A DNA stretch of 22,945 nucleotides. It comes from a virus. The notes beneath the pieces were generated by a model that made no database searches, had not been told where the DNA came from, and saw nothing but the letters and a program-made list of their open reading frames with translations. This document shows, piece after piece, positions 1 to 22,945 of this stretch. The stretch is taken from positions 1 through 22,945 of IMG/VR virus record IMGVR_UViG_3300006916_000420. One strand, written 5' to 3'. Numbering within the stretch: position 1 is the first letter of the stretch; every line of letters starts with the position of its first letter. Both the position numbers and the translations under genes were made by a program.

Positions 1-54
1 GAAGCTAGTAAGTAGAAGCTAGTAAGTAGAAGCTAGTAAGTAGAAGCTAGTAAG
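1..54. repeat. 14-bp tandem repeat (about 3.9 copies)
   Basis: The unit GAAGCTAGTAAGTA is repeated at 1-14, 15-28 and 29-42, with a 12-base partial copy at 43-54, all without mismatch. The array starts at the first base of the window, so more copies may lie to the left. It lies in non-coding DNA next to the large inverted repeat. Its role is unknown; it could be an iteron, a genome-end repeat or an assembly edge. Confidence 0.95.
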
Positions 55-63
55 AAAAAGACC

Positions 64-176
64 TGTTCCTAGAGTGTAATTTTTTGGAACAAGGGTGGAA
101 CAAAATAAGTTTTTAAAATCAATGAGTTACCCTTGCTTGTTCCTAGAGTGTAATTTTTTGGAACAGACTTGGAACA
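64..176. repeat. left arm of large inverted repeat with phased TGTTCC/GGAACA boxes
   Basis: The arm contains two copies, 74 bp apart, of one module: TGTTCC (64, 138), then an AGTGTAATTTTTT core, then GGAACA (86, 160) and a second GGAACA (97, 171). Start-to-start spacings are 22 and 11 bp, two turns and one turn of the helix. The same design in reverse orientation is found at 414-527. The spacer between the modules also matches, sharing AAAATCAA followed by a GTTA-containing stretch. This looks like a multi-site operator or origin complex. No gene is credible here. Confidence 0.9.
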
Positions 177-413
177 GACTTAAATATCTGATTTTAAAGG
201 CAAAACTAAAGGCAAAGTCCTGTTATATTATATATTATTAAAAAATAATAAAGACCTATTTTTATATACTACGAAAATTCTTTTCTTTTTTTGTTTTTTT
301 CTCTTTTTTCGTGCTTTTTTGCTTGTTTTCATAACTCCTCTCATTATTTTTTCAAAAATCACAAAAATAGCACCTTAAATCCCTCGTATCCCTTTATCCA
401 TCAGGGTTTCGAC
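177..413. other. AT-rich, T-tract-rich centre of the inverted repeat; candidate origin or unwinding region
   Basis: This is about 237 bp of non-coding DNA between the repeat arms. It holds two copies of AAAGGCAAA (196-204 and 208-216), an almost pure A/T stretch at about 222-270, and a pyrimidine-rich stretch at about 277-335 with several runs of T. An AT-rich, easily melted segment flanked by phased protein-binding boxes is the usual look of a replication origin, but a divergent promoter region would look similar. A 100-codon open frame across 291-593 is dismissed because it is low complexity and crosses the repeats. Confidence 0.5.
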
Positions 414-527
414 TGTTCCAACCTTGTTCCAAAAAATTACACTCCGAGAACAAAAACACCTAACTACTTGATTTTATTGGTCGAATCTGTTCCACCCTTT
501 GTTCCACTTTTTTACACTTCAGGAACA
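414..527. repeat. right arm of large inverted repeat
   Basis: This arm is the reverse complement of the left-arm design: TGTTCC at 414, 425, 488 and 500, GGAACA at 522, and a degenerate AGAACA at 447. Start-to-start spacings are 11, 22, 12 and 22 bp. The two modules are again 74 bp apart. ATTACAC or TTACAC, the complement of the AGTGTAA core, lies between the boxes. The arm ends 5 bp before palindrome site 1 and 34 bp before the -35 box of the first promoter. Confidence 0.9.
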
Positions 528-531
528 GACT

Positions 532-547
532 TGCCGACATGTCGGCA
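532..547. repeat. 16-bp palindrome, site 1 (perfect)
   Basis: This is a perfect copy of TGCCGACATGTCGGCA. It ends 13 bp before the -35 box at 561, in the position of an upstream activator or repressor site. The same arrangement is seen at site 3. Confidence 0.95.
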
Positions 548-560
548 CACCCTTGAAATA

Positions 561-589
561 TTGACAAAGTGTAATTTCTATGATAGACT
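561..589 (+). promoter_or_regulatory. sigma-70-type promoter P1 with AGTGTAAT spacer
   Basis: The -35 box TTGACA (561-566) is an exact consensus match. A 17-bp spacer contains AGTGTAAT (568-575) and ends in an extended -10 TGA (581-583). The -10 box is TAGACT (584-589). P2 at 1295-1323 has the same 29 bases with one difference. P1 would start transcription near 596 and drive the rightward early genes from 665. Confidence 0.8.
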
Positions 590-601
590 GTAATTAATGA
601 G

Positions 602-7557: not shown

Positions 7558-8715
7558 AAAAAGAAACAGAGTGGTAATCTTGCAGACTTAATCGAGATTG
7601 CTTTTGATGCAGTAAAAAAGAAATTTGGGGATAAAAAAGTTGAACTCAAAATATCTAAACACTTTGGTCACAAACTCGACCTAATTAGTTTAAAGGGTGT
7701 AAATAAAGCACAACATAATTTTTGGGGTGAGGTTGAAAAAAATGGTCGTGAAAAAAACCTATTAAAGGTTGTCCTTAATCATGGAGCAACATATGATATG
7801 CCTGATATACATGCACTTTCCTCTGATATAGATTATCAATCTACTTATCTACCCCTTGAAGTTGATAAGATTTTAAACCTAAAAGATTATGATAGAAGTC
7901 TATTTGATTTAGTTGTAATAGGTGACAAATACTACAATGGTTCGGATGGTCAGGGTTTCTACGCAGGATACTATTTAAAGATGTATTTTGGAAATATCTT
8001 TTCCGATTTAGAATTAGGTTTCTATGTGGACAAAACTTTGATTGGTGCAGTAGATATTTATACTTCTAGTAGAGGTGGAAAGGGTTTGAGGTTTGAATTA
8101 CAGTTTAAAGATAATAACAGGTCGCATAGTGGTCGTAGTATTGTGCCTAAAAGTATTAGGTCTATTATCTTTAATACCATGCATGCACCTGACAAAACCG
8201 AGCAATTGTTCTTTGAACAAAAACTTAAAGAGTTTAGAAGTACATATAAGTTTGGTGGTGATGATAATTCACATAGAACTCTTAACAAAATTGATAAAGA
8301 GTTGACTAGCCTTGTTAATGAAGAAAGAATTAATTTTGGTATTTTGCACCGAGATACTTTCGCTGACACACTAGATAAGTTGGGTAGTTGTATTAAAGAG
8401 GTTGAGAGTAGTGAATCTTCCAAATCGTTTTTTAAATTTATAGATGAGTATAAAGATATACTCGCTGACTATAACTATTTGAACACTCTTCTTGATATGA
8501 ATATGAAAAATCATATGGTGTTTGTTAATTTTGTTAATGATAAATATTCAGTTGTTTCTCATAGAGATGGGGTATATGTCAGAGACTACTATGATTCACC
8601 TGAAGATTTACCTGAAGATATACGAGATAAGTATTCGCTACTTTCTAGTAGTGATGAGGATATCTTTTATGTTGGGTTTAAGTTGGGTGATTGCTACGCA
8701 GTTAGTCTTTTGTGA
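7549..8715 (+). CDS. 388-aa hypothetical protein, third member of the AAA+/VWA cassette
   Basis: I recognise no domain. The protein starts with a basic MATKKKQSG tail, then mixed alpha/beta sequence with serine/aspartate-rich blocks, and ends in an acidic, tyrosine-rich region (about 330-388). No transmembrane segment or nucleotide loop is visible. It follows the VWA gene by 21 bp and begins with the same 26 bp as the AAA+ gene, which argues that it belongs to the same functional set, perhaps as substrate or adaptor. Palindrome site 10 follows its stop. Confidence 0.75.
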   Translation: MATKKKQSGNLADLIEIAFDAVKKKFGDKKVELKISKHFGHKLDLISLKGVNKAQHNFWGEVEKNGREKNLLKVVLNHGATYDMPDIHALSSDIDYQSTYLPLEVDKILNLKDYDRSLFDLVVIGDKYYNGSDGQGFYAGYYLKMYFGNIFSDLELGFYVDKTLIGAVDIYTSSRGGKGLRFELQFKDNNRSHSGRSIVPKSIRSIIFNTMHAPDKTEQLFFEQKLKEFRSTYKFGGDDNSHRTLNKIDKELTSLVNEERINFGILHRDTFADTLDKLGSCIKEVESSESSKSFFKFIDEYKDILADYNYLNTLLDMNMKNHMVFVNFVNDKYSVVSHRDGVYVRDYYDSPEDLPEDIRDKYSLLSSSDEDIFYVGFKLGDCYAVSLL

Positions 8716-9294: not shown

Positions 9295-9452
9295 TGGATT
9301 TAGATTCTATGACAAGAGAAGAGTTAGAACTTTTACTGCATGAGTTAGAAATGCAAAATGGTGGTGAGGGTACAAAGGATATTCGATTCAGACATAAGGT
9401 CGAAGATATGATAACTGCAAAAATAATCTATGAGGAGAATGACTATGAGTAA
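9291..9452 (+). CDS. 53-aa small hypothetical protein
   Basis: A short acidic protein (MMDLDSMTREELELLLHELE...) with a predicted N-terminal amphipathic helix. ATG 9291 overlaps the previous TGA and follows GGAGAGG; ATG 9294 is the next codon and could also be used. The end overlaps the start of the next gene by 8 bp. Its context in a chain of coupled small genes is the main support that it is real. Confidence 0.55.
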   Translation: MMDLDSMTREELELLLHELEMQNGGEGTKDIRFRHKVEDMITAKIIYEENDYE

Positions 9453-11321: not shown

Positions 11322-11992
11322 TAAGTAGCAATACTCCACCACCCCCATGTGAAATACATAATTGCAGGTACAAACCAAGATGTAAAAGTGAATTACTTGC
11401 TTGTAAATCGTTCTTAAAATTTCTAAACACAGGTAGTAATGTAGCATCACCATCTCTGCCAACAAGACAAATCTATAGAAAAGGTTTTTATGAATCGCCT
11501 TACAATGGTTCTAACACAACAACACCTGATAGTTTATCCCTTGTTGTGTTTGGAGATTCTGCTAAAAAAATTAGTGAGTTTAATTACGATATAAATTCTG
11601 AAGATGCAGAACTACAAGGTAAAGAATTTTTTAATTTGTATAAACCACTCGAAGATGCAGGAATTAGGAATCCATTATTATATTTAGCAAAAGAAAAAAA
11701 TTGGGATATAGGGTTTGTTTACAAGGGAGTAAAGAGATGGCTAACCATAACTTACAATGCCAATAAAAGAAAACTAGATAGTCTTATAGGAGAACTAAAA
11801 GAAAAAAGCACGAAGCTATTTTCAGGTAATGCACTCACTTTCAATTCAAAACAACAAGGTGAAGCAAGGATGAGAAAAAAGGTTTTACAGGTAGAGTATA
11901 GAAGAACATCAAGTAAATTAATATCCCAATTTAAAAAGGGAAAAACTGCGTTAGAAAAAGAAGCAAAAAGAAAAGCAAGGGGGAACTATTGA
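11237..11992 (+). CDS. 251-aa protein with N-terminal Cys4 motif
   Basis: The N-terminus has C38-x4-C43-x5-C49-x6-C56, ending LLACKSFLKFLNTG. I have seen similar Cys blocks in other phage proteins; it probably binds zinc. The C-terminal 100 residues are strongly basic and helical, suggesting nucleic-acid binding. I chose ATG 11237, with GAGGAA (11223-11228) upstream; an in-frame ATG at 11189 would add 16 residues and deepen the overlap with the previous gene. The end overlaps the polymerase start (TTGA), so the two are co-translated. A DNA-binding accessory role in replication is inference from context. Confidence 0.65.
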   Translation: MGEKEWVFGTNRIKSETLDKEYTEILGLISSNTPPPPCEIHNCRYKPRCKSELLACKSFLKFLNTGSNVASPSLPTRQIYRKGFYESPYNGSNTTTPDSLSLVVFGDSAKKISEFNYDINSEDAELQGKEFFNLYKPLEDAGIRNPLLYLAKEKNWDIGFVYKGVKRWLTITYNANKRKLDSLIGELKEKSTKLFSGNALTFNSKQQGEARMRKKVLQVEYRRTSSKLISQFKKGKTALEKEAKRKARGNY

Positions 11993-13812
11993 AATTATTA
12001 ACGATTGATTTTGAAACATATTACGACAAAGATTTTTCGCTGTCTAAAATAACGACAGAGGAATATATAAGAAGTGAACAGTTTGAAACTATTGGTGTTG
12101 CAGTTAAAGAAGATAGTGGAGAAACTAAATGGTATACAGGTGCATTTTCTGAAATAAGAAAAGCATTGAAGCAGTATGATTGGGAGGATTCAGGTTGCCT
12201 TGCACATAATGCAATGTTTGATTCTGCAATTCTTACATGGTTGTTTGGCATAAAACCAAAGATGTGGTTCGATACAATGAGTATGGGTAGAGCATTGATT
12301 GGTTCATTCCATTCTGTCTCCCTTGCAAATATGTCGAAGTATTATAAAGTCGGTGAGAAAGGCACAGAAGTTTTAAATGCGTTAGGAAAAAGACGAGCAG
12401 ATTTTTCAGAAGAAGAATTAGAAAGATACGCACAGTATTGCATTAATGATGTCGAGTTAACTTATGCTTTGTTTAGTAAGATTATCAAAGGGTTTCCTCA
12501 ATCAGAGTTGAGACTTATAGACTTAACGATAAAAATGTTTAGTGAACCAATATTAGAAATAGATGAAGGGTTATTAGAAAAAGAACTAAAGAGTATTGAG
12601 GAAAAGAAACAATCCTTACTAAACCAGTCAGGTATGGATTCAAAAACACTTGCGAGTAATAAACAGTTTGCAGAGTTTTTAGAATCTAAAGGTGTTAAAG
12701 TGCCAATGAAAATAAGTCCAAGAACAGGCAAACCTACCTATGCCCTAGCAAAATCTGATGAGGGTTTCAAAGAATTGTTAGACCACGAAGATGAGACAAT
12801 TCAAATTGTAGCGAGTGCAAGGAAGAATATAAAAAGTACAATCAACCAAACAAGAATAGAAAGATTTTTATCTATTGCAGAAAGAGGTTCGCTACCTGTA
12901 CCTTTGCGTTATTATGCCGCCCACACAGGAAGATGGGGTGGTACAGATAAAGTCAATCTACAAAATCTACCAAAGAATAAAATGCGAGAGGGTATCATTG
13001 TACCGTCAGGTCACACACTCATAGATGCAGATTCTTCGCAGATTGAAGCAAGAGTTTTATGTTGGTTTGCAGGTCAGGAAGATATGCTAAACGCATTTAG
13101 AACAGGTCAAGATAACTATAAAATTATGGCAAGTAAAATATATGGTAAGAAAGTTGAAGATGTAACACCTGCTGAAAGATTTATCGGTAAGACTTGTGTA
13201 TTAGGTTGTGGATATCAAATGAGTTATTCCAAGTTTCAAGGCACGATTAAAAATGCAGGGGTAGATATGACAGAAGAAGAATGTAAAAAGATTGTCTATG
13301 CTTATCGAGATTCTGCAAGGTATATATCTGATTTATGGTATCAAGGTCAAGACTTATTACGAAACTTATGTAAGAACAAGATATCCAAGTTTGGTAAAGA
13401 GGGTATAGTTACTCCCTTTCTTGATTCATTACAGCTACCAAATGGTATGCACATTCACTACAGAGATTTAAGAGAAATAGTAGTTGAAGAAGAAGATGGT
13501 ATTAGAAAACAAATAGTTTATCAATCAAGAGATAAAGAACCAAAATATATTTATGGTGGAAAACTAACAGAGAATGTTGTTCAAGGATTAGCAAGGATTT
13601 TAATAGCAGACCAAATGTTATTAATTGCCAAGAAGTACAAGGTTGTGTTTACTGTACATGATGCGATTGCGTGTGTTGTTCCGATAGAAGAAGCAGAGGA
13701 AGCAATGAAGTATGTCGAGGAATGTATGAGTTTTGTACCATCTTGGGCAGAGGGTCTACCTCTCACATGTGAGGTAGGTAATGGAAATAGTTATGGAGGT
13801 ATATCAAAATGA
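11989..13812 (+). CDS. family A DNA polymerase with 3'-5' exonuclease
   Basis: A 607-aa replicative DNA polymerase of family A (Pol I-like). The exonuclease domain has DFET (Asp7, Glu9), HNAMFD (Asn74, Asp78) and Y150-x3-D154. The polymerase domain has the TGRWGGTDKVNLQNLPK block (313-329), motif A with Asp348 in DSSQIEAR, motif B R397-x3-K401-x7-Y409 and motif C His557-Asp558. The residue matching E. coli Phe762 is Leu405. There is no 5'-3' exonuclease domain, as usual for phage enzymes. The start is TTG at 11989, overlapping the previous stop, with AGGGGGAAC upstream; no in-frame ATG precedes the DFET motif. Confidence 0.95.
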   Translation: MKLLTIDFETYYDKDFSLSKITTEEYIRSEQFETIGVAVKEDSGETKWYTGAFSEIRKALKQYDWEDSGCLAHNAMFDSAILTWLFGIKPKMWFDTMSMGRALIGSFHSVSLANMSKYYKVGEKGTEVLNALGKRRADFSEEELERYAQYCINDVELTYALFSKIIKGFPQSELRLIDLTIKMFSEPILEIDEGLLEKELKSIEEKKQSLLNQSGMDSKTLASNKQFAEFLESKGVKVPMKISPRTGKPTYALAKSDEGFKELLDHEDETIQIVASARKNIKSTINQTRIERFLSIAERGSLPVPLRYYAAHTGRWGGTDKVNLQNLPKNKMREGIIVPSGHTLIDADSSQIEARVLCWFAGQEDMLNAFRTGQDNYKIMASKIYGKKVEDVTPAERFIGKTCVLGCGYQMSYSKFQGTIKNAGVDMTEEECKKIVYAYRDSARYISDLWYQGQDLLRNLCKNKISKFGKEGIVTPFLDSLQLPNGMHIHYRDLREIVVEEEDGIRKQIVYQSRDKEPKYIYGGKLTENVVQGLARILIADQMLLIAKKYKVVFTVHDAIACVVPIEEAEEAMKYVEECMSFVPSWAEGLPLTCEVGNGNSYGGISK

Positions 13813-16968: not shown

Positions 16969-17379
16969 ATGTCAGAAGAAAAGTCAGGTATGTTTGATGC
17001 CGAAAGACTTCTAACAGCTTTCATAAACATTAGGGATAAAAAGGAAGCATTAGAATCGGAGTATAACGAAAAGGTTGAAAAACTTACCCAAAGCCAAAAC
17101 TTAATAAGAGAAAAACTTAATGAGATATTTCAAAAGACAAATATGGAATCTATTAAGACAAAGGTGGGTACTGCTTATCGTTCGATAAAAACTAAATATG
17201 GAACTAACGATTGGGAAAGTTTACATAATTTTATCATTGATAATAAAGTACCTGAAATGCTACAAAAGAGAATCAACGCAGGTGTTATGAAGGAGTGGTT
17301 AGAGAAGTATCCTACTAAAATACCTAAAGGTTTAAATACATTTAATGAATATCAAATTACTATAAGGAGAAAGAAATGA
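16969..17379 (+). CDS. conserved coiled-coil phage protein
   Basis: A 136-aa protein with an N-terminal coiled coil (about 20-62) and a C-terminal part with SIKTKVGTAYRSIKTKYGTNDWESL (60-84), a RINAGVMKEWL helix and a final basic ITIRRKK. Proteins with this layout (helix, ESIKT-GTAY-...-D, then IRR end) are common in phages next to recombination or ssDNA-binding genes; the function is unassigned. AAGGAG lies 8 bases before the ATG, downstream of P4. The stop overlaps the next start (ATGA). Confidence 0.7.
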   Translation: MSEEKSGMFDAERLLTAFINIRDKKEALESEYNEKVEKLTQSQNLIREKLNEIFQKTNMESIKTKVGTAYRSIKTKYGTNDWESLHNFIIDNKVPEMLQKRINAGVMKEWLEKYPTKIPKGLNTFNEYQITIRRKK

Positions 17380-18200
17380 GTGATATTATTCCATTCCAAG
17401 ACGGTAAACCAACAAACTTACCTTCATATTTAAAAGACGCAACTACTGCCACTACAGTTGCTTTAGCAGGTGGTGAATCTAGTGGGTTTAAACGCATATC
17501 TATAAAAGGTAATGTGTTTAGACTTATGGAAAGTGGGCAACAAGTAGCCGAGAGTGATGAGAGGTTTATGAGGATTGTCGTTGTAGATGTCGCACCTGCA
17601 ACAGGTCGTAGTTATTATGCAGGTTCATATAAAGAGGGAGAGAATAGTGGGCCTACTTGTTGGTCATCTGATAGTGTCAAACCTGATGAATCTGTCGAAG
17701 AACCACAGGCAGTAACTTGCGGTGCGTGTCCTAACAATGTCGATGGTTCAGGTCAAGGTGGTAGAGGTAGAGCATGTAGATACGCACACAAAATATCGGT
17801 TGTACTTGCTGATGATATAGAGGGAGATATCTATGCTATGAATATACCTGCTACTTCTTTTTATGGTAAAGGTCAAGCAAAGACAGGTATGCCACTTCAA
17901 GCATATGCTAAATATTTAGCTACGGGGAAACTACCTATCGAATCTATCGTAACTGAAATGCGTTTTGATTCTAACTCACCTGTACCCAAGTTACTTTTCA
18001 AAGCGGCTGGTATGTTGCCTGAAGAAAAGTTTGGGGTAATCATGCAGAGGAAAGAAGAAACAGCTAGTAAAATAGCTGTAGGTAAAACCAAAAGAGATTC
18101 AGGTGGAGGGGAAACTCCTGAACCAGTAAAGGTTGATAAACCAAAAGTAGAGGAGAAGTCTAAAAAATTAAATGATATTTTAGATGAGTTTGATAAGTAA
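17376..18200 (+). CDS. Cys4 protein, candidate ssDNA-binding protein
   Basis: A 274-aa protein with C95 (GPTCWSSD), C115-x2-C118 (TCGACPN) and C134 (RACRYAHK), a likely zinc site, in a beta-rich domain of about residues 38-215. After about 225 the tail is disordered and rich in Lys, Glu and Pro, ending acidic (LNDILDEFDK). An acidic C-terminal tail after a globular domain is typical of bacterial and phage ssDNA-binding proteins. With its place between helicase and primase genes, this makes an SSB role plausible, but there is no direct motif proof. A terminator-like hairpin follows. Confidence 0.6.
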   Translation: MSDIIPFQDGKPTNLPSYLKDATTATTVALAGGESSGFKRISIKGNVFRLMESGQQVAESDERFMRIVVVDVAPATGRSYYAGSYKEGENSGPTCWSSDSVKPDESVEEPQAVTCGACPNNVDGSGQGGRGRACRYAHKISVVLADDIEGDIYAMNIPATSFYGKGQAKTGMPLQAYAKYLATGKLPIESIVTEMRFDSNSPVPKLLFKAAGMLPEEKFGVIMQRKEETASKIAVGKTKRDSGGGETPEPVKVDKPKVEEKSKKLNDILDEFDK

Positions 18201-18244: not shown

Positions 18245-18490
18245 ATGGCATTATATTTAAAAACACAAGAAAAAATACAAAGACTATTAGACAAAAATTC
18301 ACAGTCTATGGAGGGAAGTTTAGTAAAGTTTTTTACTCACATACTAGATTGTAACAAGGGGATTGAGGAGATTGCAAAAGAATTAAATCTTACGAAAAAA
18401 ACATTATATAATTGGTTAGAGTTTAGAAGCACACCAACTAAAAACACAACTGCGAAAATAAAAATTTGGTTAAATGAGTTGCAGGGATAG
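18245..18490 (+). CDS. small helix-turn-helix protein
   Basis: An 81-aa protein with a predicted helix-turn-helix at about 39-58 (GIEEIAKELNLTKKTLYNWL), followed by FRSTPTKNTTAKIKIWLNEL, a layout like phage Cro/XRE-type or transposase-type HTH proteins. A TAGGAG site lies 7 bases before the ATG, just after the terminator-like hairpin. It is the only clear DNA-binding regulator in the window. It is therefore a candidate to act on the palindromes or the AGTGTAA boxes, but no evidence ties it to either. Confidence 0.75.
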   Translation: MALYLKTQEKIQRLLDKNSQSMEGSLVKFFTHILDCNKGIEEIAKELNLTKKTLYNWLEFRSTPTKNTTAKIKIWLNELQG

Positions 18491-18501
18491 GAGTATTAGC
18501 T

Positions 18502-21372
18502 ATGAACATGCAACAATTTTTCGAAAGGGTTTTACCTGAAGAAGAAAAAGGTAACTATTATTGTGTAACGCATTTTTCGAATACATTTCATAAGGGTACT
18601 GAGTTTAGAGAATCTAAACAAGATATCGTAGATATAGTAAAAGGTTGGGAAAACTCTAAAAATCCTCTCACTAGACAAACAGAGAAGTACATTGGTATGG
18701 CTTCTTTGAGTAGTAGTAAAGCACGCAATCAGCAAAATGCGGTGTCGAATAAATCATTGTTTATTGATATTGATTGTAAAGGTCTAACTACTGCTAAAGA
18801 GGATAAAGAGTATAACTACGATTCTAAAGAGAAAGCACTAAAAGATTTAAATAGATTTTTACAAGTGACAGGGTTACCAAAACCACTCATTTTAGATTCA
18901 GGATACGGACTACATGTACATTGGGTATTAAGTAAATCTATACCATCAGTAGAATGGAAAGCACTAGCAACTAGTTTAAAAAGATTAACCCATAAATATG
19001 ACCTACACAATGACAGAGGGCTATCAACTAACGAAGTTTGTCTTTTAAGGATACCTGAAACTCATAACTATAAAAACAAGGAGGACATAAAAGAAGTAAA
19101 AGTAATACAAGAGGGGGATATAACAGATGTAGATAAAATAGAACCTTTACTACAAGGCCCACGCAGTAGTGAAATAGTAGCTAAACTACAAGATAAAATA
19201 AAAGATTCTGCTACAACAATACTAGCGGCTACATCTCTCGGTGCAAATATTGATTTTTCTTTTAAGAAAATTGTAAATAGAAGTATGAATGGTACTGGCT
19301 GTAATCACATTAGATACATGTTAGAGAATCCTAACAAAGTTTCAGAACCATATTGGAGAGCAGGAATAAGCATAGCCGCTTTTTGTGTAGAAGAAGAGGA
19401 TGCAGTAAAACAATTATCAGAGGGGTATGCTAATTATGATGAAGCAGAAGCACTTGGTAAAATGGAAAGATTATTAAGCACAGGTGCATTTGCTTATAAG
19501 TGTACTTCTATTGATAGTATCGCCCCACCTGAAAACAAACACTTTTGTGTTAAATGTAAACATAAAGATAAAATTGGCTCACCTATAAAACTAGGTGCAG
19601 TATTACCCCAAGCACAGACAGCAAACAAAACTGTTACTGAAATAAACGCAGAGACAGAAGAAACAGTAACTTATAACATACCTAGTAATGAAGATTTACC
19701 TTTAGGGTATATGAATGGTAATACTGGTGCAGTATTAAAAGCAGGTGCAGATGAAGATTCAGACCCAATTCTAGTTTACCCCCAACCGTTATATGCAGTA
19801 AAAAGATTAGATGACCCCCTTGAAGGACAAGCACTTTGGGTTAGATTACATACTACTTTAGATGGTATTAGAGAGTTTATGATTCCTTATACAACTTTAT
19901 CCAGTACAGAAGAATGTAAAAAATTCTTGGCTGCCAAAGGGATACTCGCACCATTAGTAGGACAACAAAGAAGTATACAGCAGTATTTGATAGAGTACGC
20001 AAATCTGTTAAGAGATAAACAAAAACTAGAGGAGTTACATGTACAGTTTGGATGGAAAGAAGATTATAAAAAGTTTGTTATAGGTGTTAAAGAATTAGAT
20101 GGTGAGGGTATAAACTATACTCCACCCGCCAGTACAATGACTAATTTACTAGATAACTTTGAAAGAAAAGGTAGTTTAGAAGAATGGAAAAAGGTATTTA
20201 ATCTATACAATAAACCAGGATATGAACCACAAGCATTTACTTTGATGAGCGCATTTGGTTCTCCTTTGCTAGAATTTACCGATACCAAAGGAGTTATTAT
20301 TCATCTTACAAGTTCTGATTCAGGTGCGGGTAAGACTACGATACAGAGATTTATAAATAGTGTTTATGGTAATCCTGATATGGGTTTAAATCAGACTGAC
20401 ACTAGGTTATCTTCGTTTCATACTTTTGGTGTATTGCGTAATCTACCTTTTTGTATTGACGAGGTAACTAATATGGATGCATCTGATGCATCTGATTTAG
20501 CATATGCTATAACGCATGGTCGAGCAAGAAACAGAATGAGTGCATCATCTAATAAATTAAGAGAGAATAAATTTACTTGGAAATCTATTTTAGTTACTAC
20601 AGGTAATGCATCTTTCTACGATAAACTTGCTGAAAAAAGTCAGGCATCTGATGGAGAAATGATGAGGGTGTTTGAGATTAGAGTACCTTCTAATTCTTCT
20701 ACAGAAAGGCAAGATGATAGATTTAGTAATATAGGTAAAAACTATGGTTACGCAGGGGAAGTATATATACAACACGTTTTAAAAAATATAGATTCTGTTA
20801 AAAATAGAGTTATGGAGACAAGAGAAAAGCTACGAGTTAAATTAGGTCTGTCTAGTAAAGAAAGATTTTGGGCGGATACATTTACAGTTAATATAGTAGG
20901 TGGACAGTTAGCAAAAGAAGTAAATCTTCACAACTATGATATGGATAATATATCTCGATGGTTGCAAAGTGATATAAATACAGTTAGAAGAAAAACTACT
21001 ATATCTAAAGAAGACTTACTAGGACATATTGGCACTTATATAAATCAGCACTCTAACAATATCATAGTGATTAATGCTAAGAAGACTAATGGACTGCAAG
21101 AAGCACCTTTACGAGAACCTAAAGCCCAACTTTCTATAAGGATAGAGCCTGATACTGAAAGACTTTATTTTGCTGTTACTCATTTTAGGTCATGGTGCGC
21201 TAGAATGAGAGTTCCATATGCAGATGTTATAATAGAAGCGGAAAAGAGAGGGGTATTATTATCAACAAAGAAGAAAAGACTAGGCACAGGCTCTGAAATA
21301 CAGAGTGCTTCTGTGGGGGTAAACTGTCATGAATTTGACAGTTCTTTACTAATGTTAGACGATTTAGACTAG
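18502..21372 (+). CDS. primase-helicase fusion (AEP/RepB-like primase + DUF927-type ATPase)
   Basis: A 956-aa multidomain replication protein. The N-terminal primase-like part has FIDIDCKG (Asp89, Asp91), LDSGYGLHVHWVL (131-143, with His138 and His140) and LLRIPETHNYK (181-191), the archaeo-eukaryotic primase pattern seen in RepB-type primases. A Cys block with Cys334, Cys349 and Cys352 may bind zinc. The C-terminal ATPase resembles DUF927, with Walker A SDSGAGKTT (605-613), Walker B FCIDE (650-654) and ILVTTGNAS (696-704) as sensor. It probably unwinds and primes the phage DNA for the family A polymerase. ATG 18502 lies 12 bp after the HTH gene. Confidence 0.9.
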   Translation: MNMQQFFERVLPEEEKGNYYCVTHFSNTFHKGTEFRESKQDIVDIVKGWENSKNPLTRQTEKYIGMASLSSSKARNQQNAVSNKSLFIDIDCKGLTTAKEDKEYNYDSKEKALKDLNRFLQVTGLPKPLILDSGYGLHVHWVLSKSIPSVEWKALATSLKRLTHKYDLHNDRGLSTNEVCLLRIPETHNYKNKEDIKEVKVIQEGDITDVDKIEPLLQGPRSSEIVAKLQDKIKDSATTILAATSLGANIDFSFKKIVNRSMNGTGCNHIRYMLENPNKVSEPYWRAGISIAAFCVEEEDAVKQLSEGYANYDEAEALGKMERLLSTGAFAYKCTSIDSIAPPENKHFCVKCKHKDKIGSPIKLGAVLPQAQTANKTVTEINAETEETVTYNIPSNEDLPLGYMNGNTGAVLKAGADEDSDPILVYPQPLYAVKRLDDPLEGQALWVRLHTTLDGIREFMIPYTTLSSTEECKKFLAAKGILAPLVGQQRSIQQYLIEYANLLRDKQKLEELHVQFGWKEDYKKFVIGVKELDGEGINYTPPASTMTNLLDNFERKGSLEEWKKVFNLYNKPGYEPQAFTLMSAFGSPLLEFTDTKGVIIHLTSSDSGAGKTTIQRFINSVYGNPDMGLNQTDTRLSSFHTFGVLRNLPFCIDEVTNMDASDASDLAYAITHGRARNRMSASSNKLRENKFTWKSILVTTGNASFYDKLAEKSQASDGEMMRVFEIRVPSNSSTERQDDRFSNIGKNYGYAGEVYIQHVLKNIDSVKNRVMETREKLRVKLGLSSKERFWADTFTVNIVGGQLAKEVNLHNYDMDNISRWLQSDINTVRRKTTISKEDLLGHIGTYINQHSNNIIVINAKKTNGLQEAPLREPKAQLSIRIEPDTERLYFAVTHFRSWCARMRVPYADVIIEAEKRGVLLSTKKKRLGTGSEIQSASVGVNCHEFDSSLLMLDDLD

Positions 21373-21524: not shown

Positions 21525-21710
21525 ATGAATAGAATATCAGAAGTGAAACTACATACATACAATGTATTAAAAGATATGGAAGTTGAAGCAAGAGATGTTC
21601 GTGATAAATTAAAAGAGCTACAACAAATAAAAGCAGATAAGGCTCAATCTCTTAGAGAGCAAAGTTTAAAAAGGGCGATAGCTGAAGATAGATTTGACGT
21701 AGAAGTTTAG
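21525..21710 (+). CDS. 61-aa charged helical hypothetical protein
   Basis: A 61-aa protein, nearly all helix-forming and highly charged (VEARDVRDKLKELQQIKADK...), a likely coiled coil. It has no proper ribosome site: the nearest AGGAG is 25 bases upstream and within a hairpin. It is the last rightward gene. Its TAG overlaps the stop of the leftward structural gene. It might be a genuine end-of-operon gene; the helix-biased composition argues for a real protein and the missing ribosome site against. Confidence 0.5.
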   Translation: MNRISEVKLHTYNVLKDMEVEARDVRDKLKELQQIKADKAQSLREQSLKRAIAEDRFDVEV

Positions 21711-22945
21711 TTTTCTAATTCTTTTTGTAGTTGTCTAAATTTAGCAGGGGTTATATTTAAACCTTTTAAACCAGCTGCATTATTTTTATATAAAAGCCTT
21801 CTTTTACTATTTATAGAGTCTGCTAAATTCTCCAATGTAATTCTATAAGCATAAGGCACAGTCCTATTAAACTCTACTATTTCCTCTCTAATTTTTTGCT
21901 TCTCCTCGGAGTCACCTGCTACTAGTGCATGGTAGTAATCTGTAAATAGGCTTGTTCTTTTATCAGCTAGTGATGTATCTATTTCGTATAATGCGTTTAT
22001 TATTTTATATTCCTCGTTGACTCTTTTTGGTGGGAGACCTAAAGCTGTAAGTGTTATTTCAAAGTTTGATAAGTTATCAACCCTCACCATACCTTTTGTA
22101 TTTTTTATTGCTTTATCATCTATCACATATTGAAGCGCTCTCGCCCCATATCGCACTTGGGAAAGAGGAATAAGTTTTTCTGCGGCTCTCATCCATTCTT
22201 TTTGCGCTATATACTCGCCACCTTTTTTAATATTGTCACCCATAGAGTAAAGTGGGCCAAGCACCGTTACAAGCACATTATATAAAGGGTCATCTTTACC
22301 CGCACCTCTAAAAGGCGCTTGTCCTAGACCTACTCTTGGAACCCAATCAATAGCTGTTGCTTGAGAAAGAGGGCCATTATAAATTATGTCTGCGAGTTGT
22401 TTTGGGAAGTTAGGGTCATTAGAAAATTTACCTGTAAAATCTTCTATTTTGTTTTTCATTTTAAGTTCAAAAGGTGTTTTTATAGTGTTTCCACTTATTA
22501 AATTTTTCCCATCATACAACATTTCTATTAACCACCAGAAAGGTAAACCAACTGAACCCGCAGTTGCTAAAGCAGCAAATGTATACCCTAACAACATTTT
22601 TCTACCTTCTTTTGCTAATTGGTCTTGTTGCTCTTTAGTAAGCCCCTCAAAGTCTTTACTATTTCTCCACCTATTCCAAGCAGACTTCCATAGATAAGTC
22701 ATGAACACCAAGTATTTTTTAAACATTAAAACTGTTCTACCAATTGAGCTTTTAAAAACTTTAGGTGCATTTGCATATGAATAGTCACCATGAGACCTAT
22801 CAGTCATGTAAGCAGCATACTCATAAGCGTTTTTAAATGGTTGCCCAGTTCTTAATTTATTCGGTTCACTCTTTGCTAGCCTGTAAGCTGCTAGAAACGT
22901 TACTTCTCTATTAACTTTTTCTGTTAGTTGAAATACGTTTGTTAA
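21707..22945 (-). CDS. C-terminal part of a large virion-type (PLxRFG-like) protein, cut by the window edge
   Basis: 412 residues are visible and the frame stays open through the right edge, so the true start lies beyond base 22945; an internal ATG at 22807 is not a convincing start. Features include an N-terminal visible helix region, a hydrophobic segment (about visible residues 117-144, MLLGYTFAALATAGSVGLPFWW...), and IPLSQVRYG (259-267), resembling the PLxRFG block found near the end of giant polyvalent phage proteins. These are often internal virion or ejection proteins. It ends in helical, charged sequence. It is the only minus-strand gene, indicating that the structural genes run leftward. 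Confidence 0.7.
   Translation of the reverse strand, partial: LTNVFQLTEKVNREVTFLAAYRLAKSEPNKLRTGQPFKNAYEYAAYMTDRSHGDYSYANAPKVFKSSIGRTVLMFKKYLVFMTYLWKSAWNRWRNSKDFEGLTKEQQDQLAKEGRKMLLGYTFAALATAGSVGLPFWWLIEMLYDGKNLISGNTIKTPFELKMKNKIEDFTGKFSNDPNFPKQLADIIYNGPLSQATAIDWVPRVGLGQAPFRGAGKDDPLYNVLVTVLGPLYSMGDNIKKGGEYIAQKEWMRAAEKLIPLSQVRYGARALQYVIDDKAIKNTKGMVRVDNLSNFEITLTALGLPPKRVNEEYKIINALYEIDTSLADKRTSLFTDYYHALVAGDSEEKQKIREEIVEFNRTVPYAYRITLENLADSINSKRRLLYKNNAAGLKGLNITPAKFRQLQKELEN

Follow-up and report, generated by a model that had tools for sequence, protein, structure and literature searches.

What does the mirror-image array of short boxes at positions 64-527 of the IMG/VR virus record IMGVR_UViG_3300006916_000420 do for the phage that carries it? 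The window analyzed here is that entire contig, 22,945 bases long, and the array lies close to its left end. An initial annotation, made from the sequence alone, had read the array as a cooperative protein-DNA complex and offered three roles for it: an origin, a divergent operator, or a packaging/segregation site. We find that an origin fits best. Judged from sequence comparison, the array is very likely the phage's main bidirectional origin of replication, where the phage's own primase-helicase would bind and host integration host factor (IHF) would bend the DNA.

The array contains 11 exact TGTTCC/GGAACA hexamers and one degenerate copy, grouped in four modules that make up two mirror-image arms. 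TGTTCC begins at 64, 138, 414, 425, 488, and 500, GGAACA at 86, 97, 160, 171, and 522; the degenerate twelfth box is AGAACA at 447-452. In the left arm, on the plus strand, the outer module (64-102) has boxes at 64-69, 86-91, and 97-102, and the inner module (138-176) has boxes at 138-143, 160-165, and 171-176. In the right arm, on the minus strand, the inner module (414-452) has boxes at 414-419, 425-430, and 447-452, and the outer module (488-527) has boxes at 488-493, 500-505, and 522-527. From left to right the box spacings are 22/11, 22/11, 11/(22), and 12/22 bp; modules repeat at 74 bp in both arms, and the arms are inverted copies of each other. The initial annotation had described the half-sites, their two forward and two reverse modules, and their spacing in the same way, and every box was found where it had been placed. 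Eleven exact boxes in window positions 1-600 compare with 0.28 expected and with a maximum of 3 in 2000 dinucleotide shuffles. Within each arm the box starts fall on one helical phase (coherence at 10.5 bp, 0.92 and 0.82), which bears out the earlier claim that the boxes face one side of the helix, each arm being taken separately.

Between the first two boxes of every module lies the motif AGTGTAA. The inter-module stretch, previously noted only as a conserved spacer, holds a perfect match to the IHF consensus WATCAANNNNTTR in each arm: AATCAATGAGTTA at 117-129 (plus strand) and AATCAAGTAGTTA at 461-473 (minus strand). These two predicted binding sites thus occupy fixed places in the element, each between an outer and an inner module and in mirror orientation to its partner. 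Separating the arms is a 236-bp core (178-413, unstranded) with a GC content of 26%, the presumed site of melting; it includes the 200-bp stretch with the least GC in the whole window (181-380, 22%). Single-strand hairpins formed by the array modules showed no stability above chance, module 2 being a weak exception.

Is this plan conserved? The array is present in a near-twin contig, L055 (IMGVR_UViG_3300025759_000534; 99.9% identical), and the same two-arm plan is found in a relative that is 80-85% identical (L056/L063), where the spacers have changed, as have some of the distances between boxes. Scans by terminase and by ATPase recovered arrays in many further relatives. Upstream of the conserved ATPase gene, a strong mirrored hexamer array was observed at 31 of the 41 distinct loci with enough sequence there, versus none of 27 control stretches of the same length taken downstream; the loci are related to one another, so that these counts do not represent independent events. 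The letters of the boxes drift from relative to relative (GGAACA, AGAACA, TGAACA, GAAACA, GTAACA, TACTCA, and others; in the opposite orientation also TGTTCC, TGTTCT, TGTTCA, ATGTTA). The layout is constant: the outer boxes, spaced at 9-12 bp, are followed by an IHF site, by an inner pair with a usual spacing of 7-9 bp, and by the AT-rich core, beyond which the same elements recur in mirror image. In 29 arrays, 23 IHF-consensus sites were counted in 10.5 kb, as compared to 27 in the remaining 368 kb; the enrichment is 30-fold, and its binomial p-value (9e-23) overstates independence because the loci are related. The GC content of the same arrays was 39.6%, versus 47.9% overall. A scan of viral contigs with the exact 18-base module pattern returned 47 loci, many of them prophages with arrays beside primase-type genes. 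Exact whole-window megablast against phage records gave no matches, a profile search with seven ATPases gave no usable pattern, and no clear hexamer array was seen at some more distant loci (L234, L236, and L244). The initial annotation had stated that absence of the boxes from relatives, or random spacing in them, would argue against a functional complex; both were looked for and the array withstood the comparison. Its reading as a conserved cooperative protein-DNA site is strongly supported.

The company that the array keeps distinguishes replication from packaging. Two isolates, the Rhizobium phage RHph_TM3_14A and the Pseudomonas phage Rollin, have polymerase, helicase, exonuclease, and primase in common with the window, do not share its terminase, and each carry an array with IHF sites. 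The 60.9-kb RHph_TM3_14A genome has only two IHF-consensus sites, both inside the array (19.4-20.1 kb) and mirroring each other, and nowhere else in that genome is the GC content as low as in the array; the Rollin array (1-700), whose boxes are spaced at 22 and 9 bp, is one of the stretches of its genome with the least GC. The plan is likewise kept in KPP25, as a mirrored array (26.4-26.8 kb) that lacks an IHF consensus and stands where the GC content of its genome is lowest. The primase-helicase is encoded in all 14 contigs longer than 50 kb that were searched, with a clear array in 11 of them; a further primase-bearing contig, G016, is uninformative because it is cut where the array would be expected. 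Since the replication genes are shared and the terminase is not, and since the primase-helicase is so constant, the array belongs with replication rather than with packaging. A packaging site (cosB or pac) read by the small terminase subunit together with IHF would recall cosB of phage lambda, which likewise joins boxes and IHF, and in the closer relatives the array does lie 2.3-3.3 kb upstream of the gene for the large terminase subunit. Arrays of this plan nevertheless go with the same replication genes even where the terminase is unrelated to that of the window, no convincing array was found in HTVC027P, HTVC023P, or DSL-LC04, whose terminases are related, and mirror symmetry would be unexpected for a one-sided cosB. 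We therefore consider packaging, one of the roles first proposed, improbable.

A segregation site is less probable still, although P1 parS offers a precedent, with hexamer and heptamer boxes arranged around an IHF bend, and TGTTCC is similar to a bacterial parS half-site. The array plan travels with the replication module, and no ParA or ParB was recognized among the window proteins scanned, a scan that covered part of the proteins.

The third role first suggested, a divergent operator, would have a phage or host regulator, for example the alphaproteobacterial LexA (GTTC-N7-GTTC), controlling the early promoter at 561 on one side of the array and genes on the other. An exact GTTC-N7-GTTC occurs in three of the four modules, and a sigma70-like early promoter (TTGACA-N17-TAGACT; 561-589, plus strand), with AAGTGTAA in its spacer, lies 34 bp to the right of the array. 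Three such promoters (window 561, 1295, and 4909) have TTGNCAAAGTGTAAT in common, and the AGTGTAA of their spacers is also central to every array module, so one protein might read both. Relatives, however, keep the plan with other letters and with spacings of 8, 9, 10, or 12 bp, and because letters and spacing both differ, no single host LexA could read all of these arrays. A repressor would, moreover, need neither an AT-rich core nor mirrored IHF sites. The operator explanation is accordingly very improbable, about as much so as segregation; the array may still have a secondary effect on the promoter at 561.

If the array is an origin, which protein reads it? The proposed initiator is a primase-helicase of 956 amino acids (18502-21372, plus strand), with an AEP primase N-terminus and a DUF927 helicase of the SaPIbov1 Rep/Cch type. 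Profile searches matched it to Cch of SCCmec (5dgk, E 2.5e-20) and to Rep of SaPIbov1 (8tch, E 7e-17), and the predicted full-length structure again gave 5dgk and 8tch as top fold matches, with AEP primases matching its N-terminal part. A separate prediction of the last 171 residues (786-956; pLDDT 79.5) includes a winged helix (residues 877-946; 21130-21339, plus strand), the proposed box-binding domain. In fold comparison it came closest to the C-terminal domain of 8tch (Z 9.5, 2.9 A over 99 residues); the corresponding domain of 5dgk and the oriT-binding protein of pCW3 each scored Z 8.9. By sequence and fold likeness, then, the element that carries the array also encodes a Rep-type initiator helicase with a putative C-terminal origin-binding domain.

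Alternatively, the array could be an origin whose boxes are bound by some other phage protein that loads the primase-helicase, such as an 81-amino-acid helix-turn-helix protein encoded at 18245-18490. This small gene lies just before the primase gene and is conserved in a relative, and similar arrays are found in phages with other primase types. By sequence, however, the protein was found only in the closest relatives, while arrays extend to RHph_TM3_14A and Rollin, and it is the C-terminal domain of the primase-helicase that matches the origin-reading domain of SaPI Rep. We regard a separate box binder as unlikely, though less so than any of the roles outside replication.

The reconstructed sequence of events, with the primase-helicase as initiator, is as follows. 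Several subunits would bind the GGAACA boxes by means of the C-terminal winged helix. Host IHF would bend each arm at the site between its outer and inner modules, bringing the box clusters together, and one helicase hexamer would form on each mirror-image arm. The AT-rich core would then melt. Finally, the two helicases would depart in opposite directions, priming DNA for the family-A polymerase (11989-13812, plus strand). We infer binding of the boxes, bending by IHF, melting, and a bidirectional start from the plainly visible anatomy of the array, its conservation, its IHF-consensus sites, its melting-prone core, and the likeness of the protein to the SaPIbov1 initiator.

Several observations weigh against this account. 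Confidence in the full-length structural model is modest (pTM 0.38), and the initiator gene lies 18 kb from the array. In three of the 14 primase-bearing contigs longer than 50 kb (L223, L236, and L244) no hexamer array stood out clearly. The primase of phage 023Pt_psg01 is of a different type although its array is similar, so such arrays may also be read by other initiators, and KPP25 has a D5-type helicase; the link between array and DUF927 protein is thus not exclusive. The relatedness of the loci, described above, belongs here as well. GC skew was rejected as a test for an origin because it tracks gene direction in the window, and so speaks neither for nor against one.

The initial annotation knew of no described phage element of this design. 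That is partly right, as the exact combination appears to be new, but the basic layout has precedents. Origins of phage-inducible chromosomal islands (PICIs), among them the Staphylococcus aureus pathogenicity islands (SaPIs), have two sets of iterons on either side of an AT-rich region (PMC6092414), and in the SaPI Rep system a DUF927 helicase has a C-terminal origin-reading domain (PMC7581432). The window shares with them this type of helicase and domain, the primase being fused to it or encoded nearby. The differences are several. The carrier here is a phage and not a satellite: the near-twin has terminase, portal, and GroES-like genes, and relatives have capsid genes. The window initiator carries a fused AEP primase, and IHF sites lie between the box clusters, for which no PICI report was found. 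PICI origins are located directly 3' of rep, whereas the window origin and its initiator gene are 18 kb apart. Among the other matches, the arrays of three unrelated prophages, L014 (1696-4838), L044 (2828-5914), and L026 (3814-7160), built of TGTTCC boxes, directly adjoin TOPRIM primase-type genes of about 900 amino acids, a rep-ori arrangement like that of PICIs.

Satellite phage P4 provides a second comparison. Its annotated origin repeats, TGTTCACC, occur at 9310, 9320, and 9331 (minus strand), 9353 (plus), and 9396 and 9406 (minus), while in one arm of the relative L195 the boxes lie at -2002, -1992, and -1982 (minus), -1969 (plus), and -1917 and -1909 (minus). Core and spacing of the P4 type 1 repeat resemble what we describe, but the window hexamer is TGTTCC: its overlap with the octamer is TGTTC, and several relatives, with TGTTCA(C) boxes, agree with the octamer over TGTTCA. 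The P4 runs at 9-11 bp are followed by one inverted box about 22 bp away and a pair about 43 bp further. In P4, however, the boxes are split over ori and crr, 4.5 kb apart, and the alpha initiator is a TOPRIM/D5 protein (Zn ribbon, TOPRIM, D5_N, Pox_D5), unlike the window protein with its AEP and DUF927 domains. No significant sequence match between alpha and the window protein was found; a remote relation may exist.

Hexamer boxes around an AT-rich stretch are also known from the origins of SV40 T-antigen and papillomavirus E1, where two hexameric helicases assemble head to head. There the DNA-binding domains are N-terminal rather than C-terminal and the helicases belong to another family, and the analogy is functional only; an analogy between these systems and SaPI Rep has been drawn before (PMC7581432). 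The same paper describes binding of direct repeats of a putative origin by the C-terminal domain of Cch2. The SCCmec protein Cch (5dgk) matches the window protein in both helicase and C-terminal domain, but no mirrored multi-box array with IHF sites is described for Cch or Cch2 in the passages of PMC7581432 that were read. From the PICI and P4 comparisons, the window element is best described as an origin of their kind that is carried by a phage of full size, lies at a great distance from the initiator gene, and has acquired IHF sites in addition.

The surroundings of the array deserve a brief description. The left end of the window falls inside a tandem 14-mer repeat, GAAGCTAGTAAGTA (window 1-56, plus strand), that adjoins the left arm; the near-twin, which extends further left, has five copies (8501-8567), and L056 has two degenerate ones (8345, 8360). 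Leftward of the repeat in the near-twin are a terminator, a gene for a 228-amino-acid protein, and then leftward terminase, portal, and co-chaperonin (GroES-like) genes. The gene adjoining the array differs between phages that are otherwise 80-85% identical, encoding 228 amino acids in L055 (7732-8418) and an unrelated 200 in L063 (3741-4343); an equally variable lysine-rich gene occupies this place in most relatives, and in L109 two copies of one gene family (16-537 and 1583-2110) lie on either side of the array. Because close relatives have exchanged this gene but kept the boxes, its product probably does not read them and was rejected as a candidate.

To the right of the array are the early promoters and then the rightward replication module, which encodes a MoxR-type ATPase, a VWA protein, the family-A polymerase, a RecB-like nuclease, a SNF2-type helicase, and the primase-helicase. 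A 274-amino-acid protein (17376-18200), conserved beside the primase in seven genomes, has an acidic tail, DILDEFDK, similar to that of single-strand DNA-binding proteins. On the opposite strand, 21707-22807 encodes the C-terminal part of a DarB-like giant antirestriction protein, whose place is conserved in relatives. Dispersed through the early region, often preceding promoters or start codons, are 14-bp palindromes, GCCGA-N4-TCGGC (window 533, 632, 1269, 1448, 1776, 2995, 5013, 6194, 8722, and 10531). The 80-85% relative has none of these and carries CCCTCG-N4-CGAGGG at some of the corresponding positions, in front of the ATPase gene and near the array; the palindromes resemble operators particular to each species ("stoperators"), or hairpins.

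The layout, here very probably that of an origin, was previously described for small phage satellites and is now found across a large and widespread family of full-sized phages of 60-65 kb, with isolates on Rhizobium and Pseudomonas. What is new is this wide occurrence in full-sized tailed phages, together with the IHF sites and the separation of the array from the initiator gene by 18 kb. The literature searched, which did not include subscription papers, yielded no report of an origin for the family. The result is a short, testable origin with a named initiator and an IHF hinge. It brings the replication of phages and of satellites under a single design, the specificity of which can be studied by swaps of boxes or of C-terminal domains. 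Perhaps, and we suggest this only tentatively, a large clade of full-sized tailed phages and the satellites (PICI/SaPI, P4) share a single origin design with drifting letters, in which the winged helix that reads the letters sets the pairing of initiator and origin and IHF hinges couple the phage arms. If that is true, satellites and the phages that infect the same cell could exploit or obstruct one another's replication.
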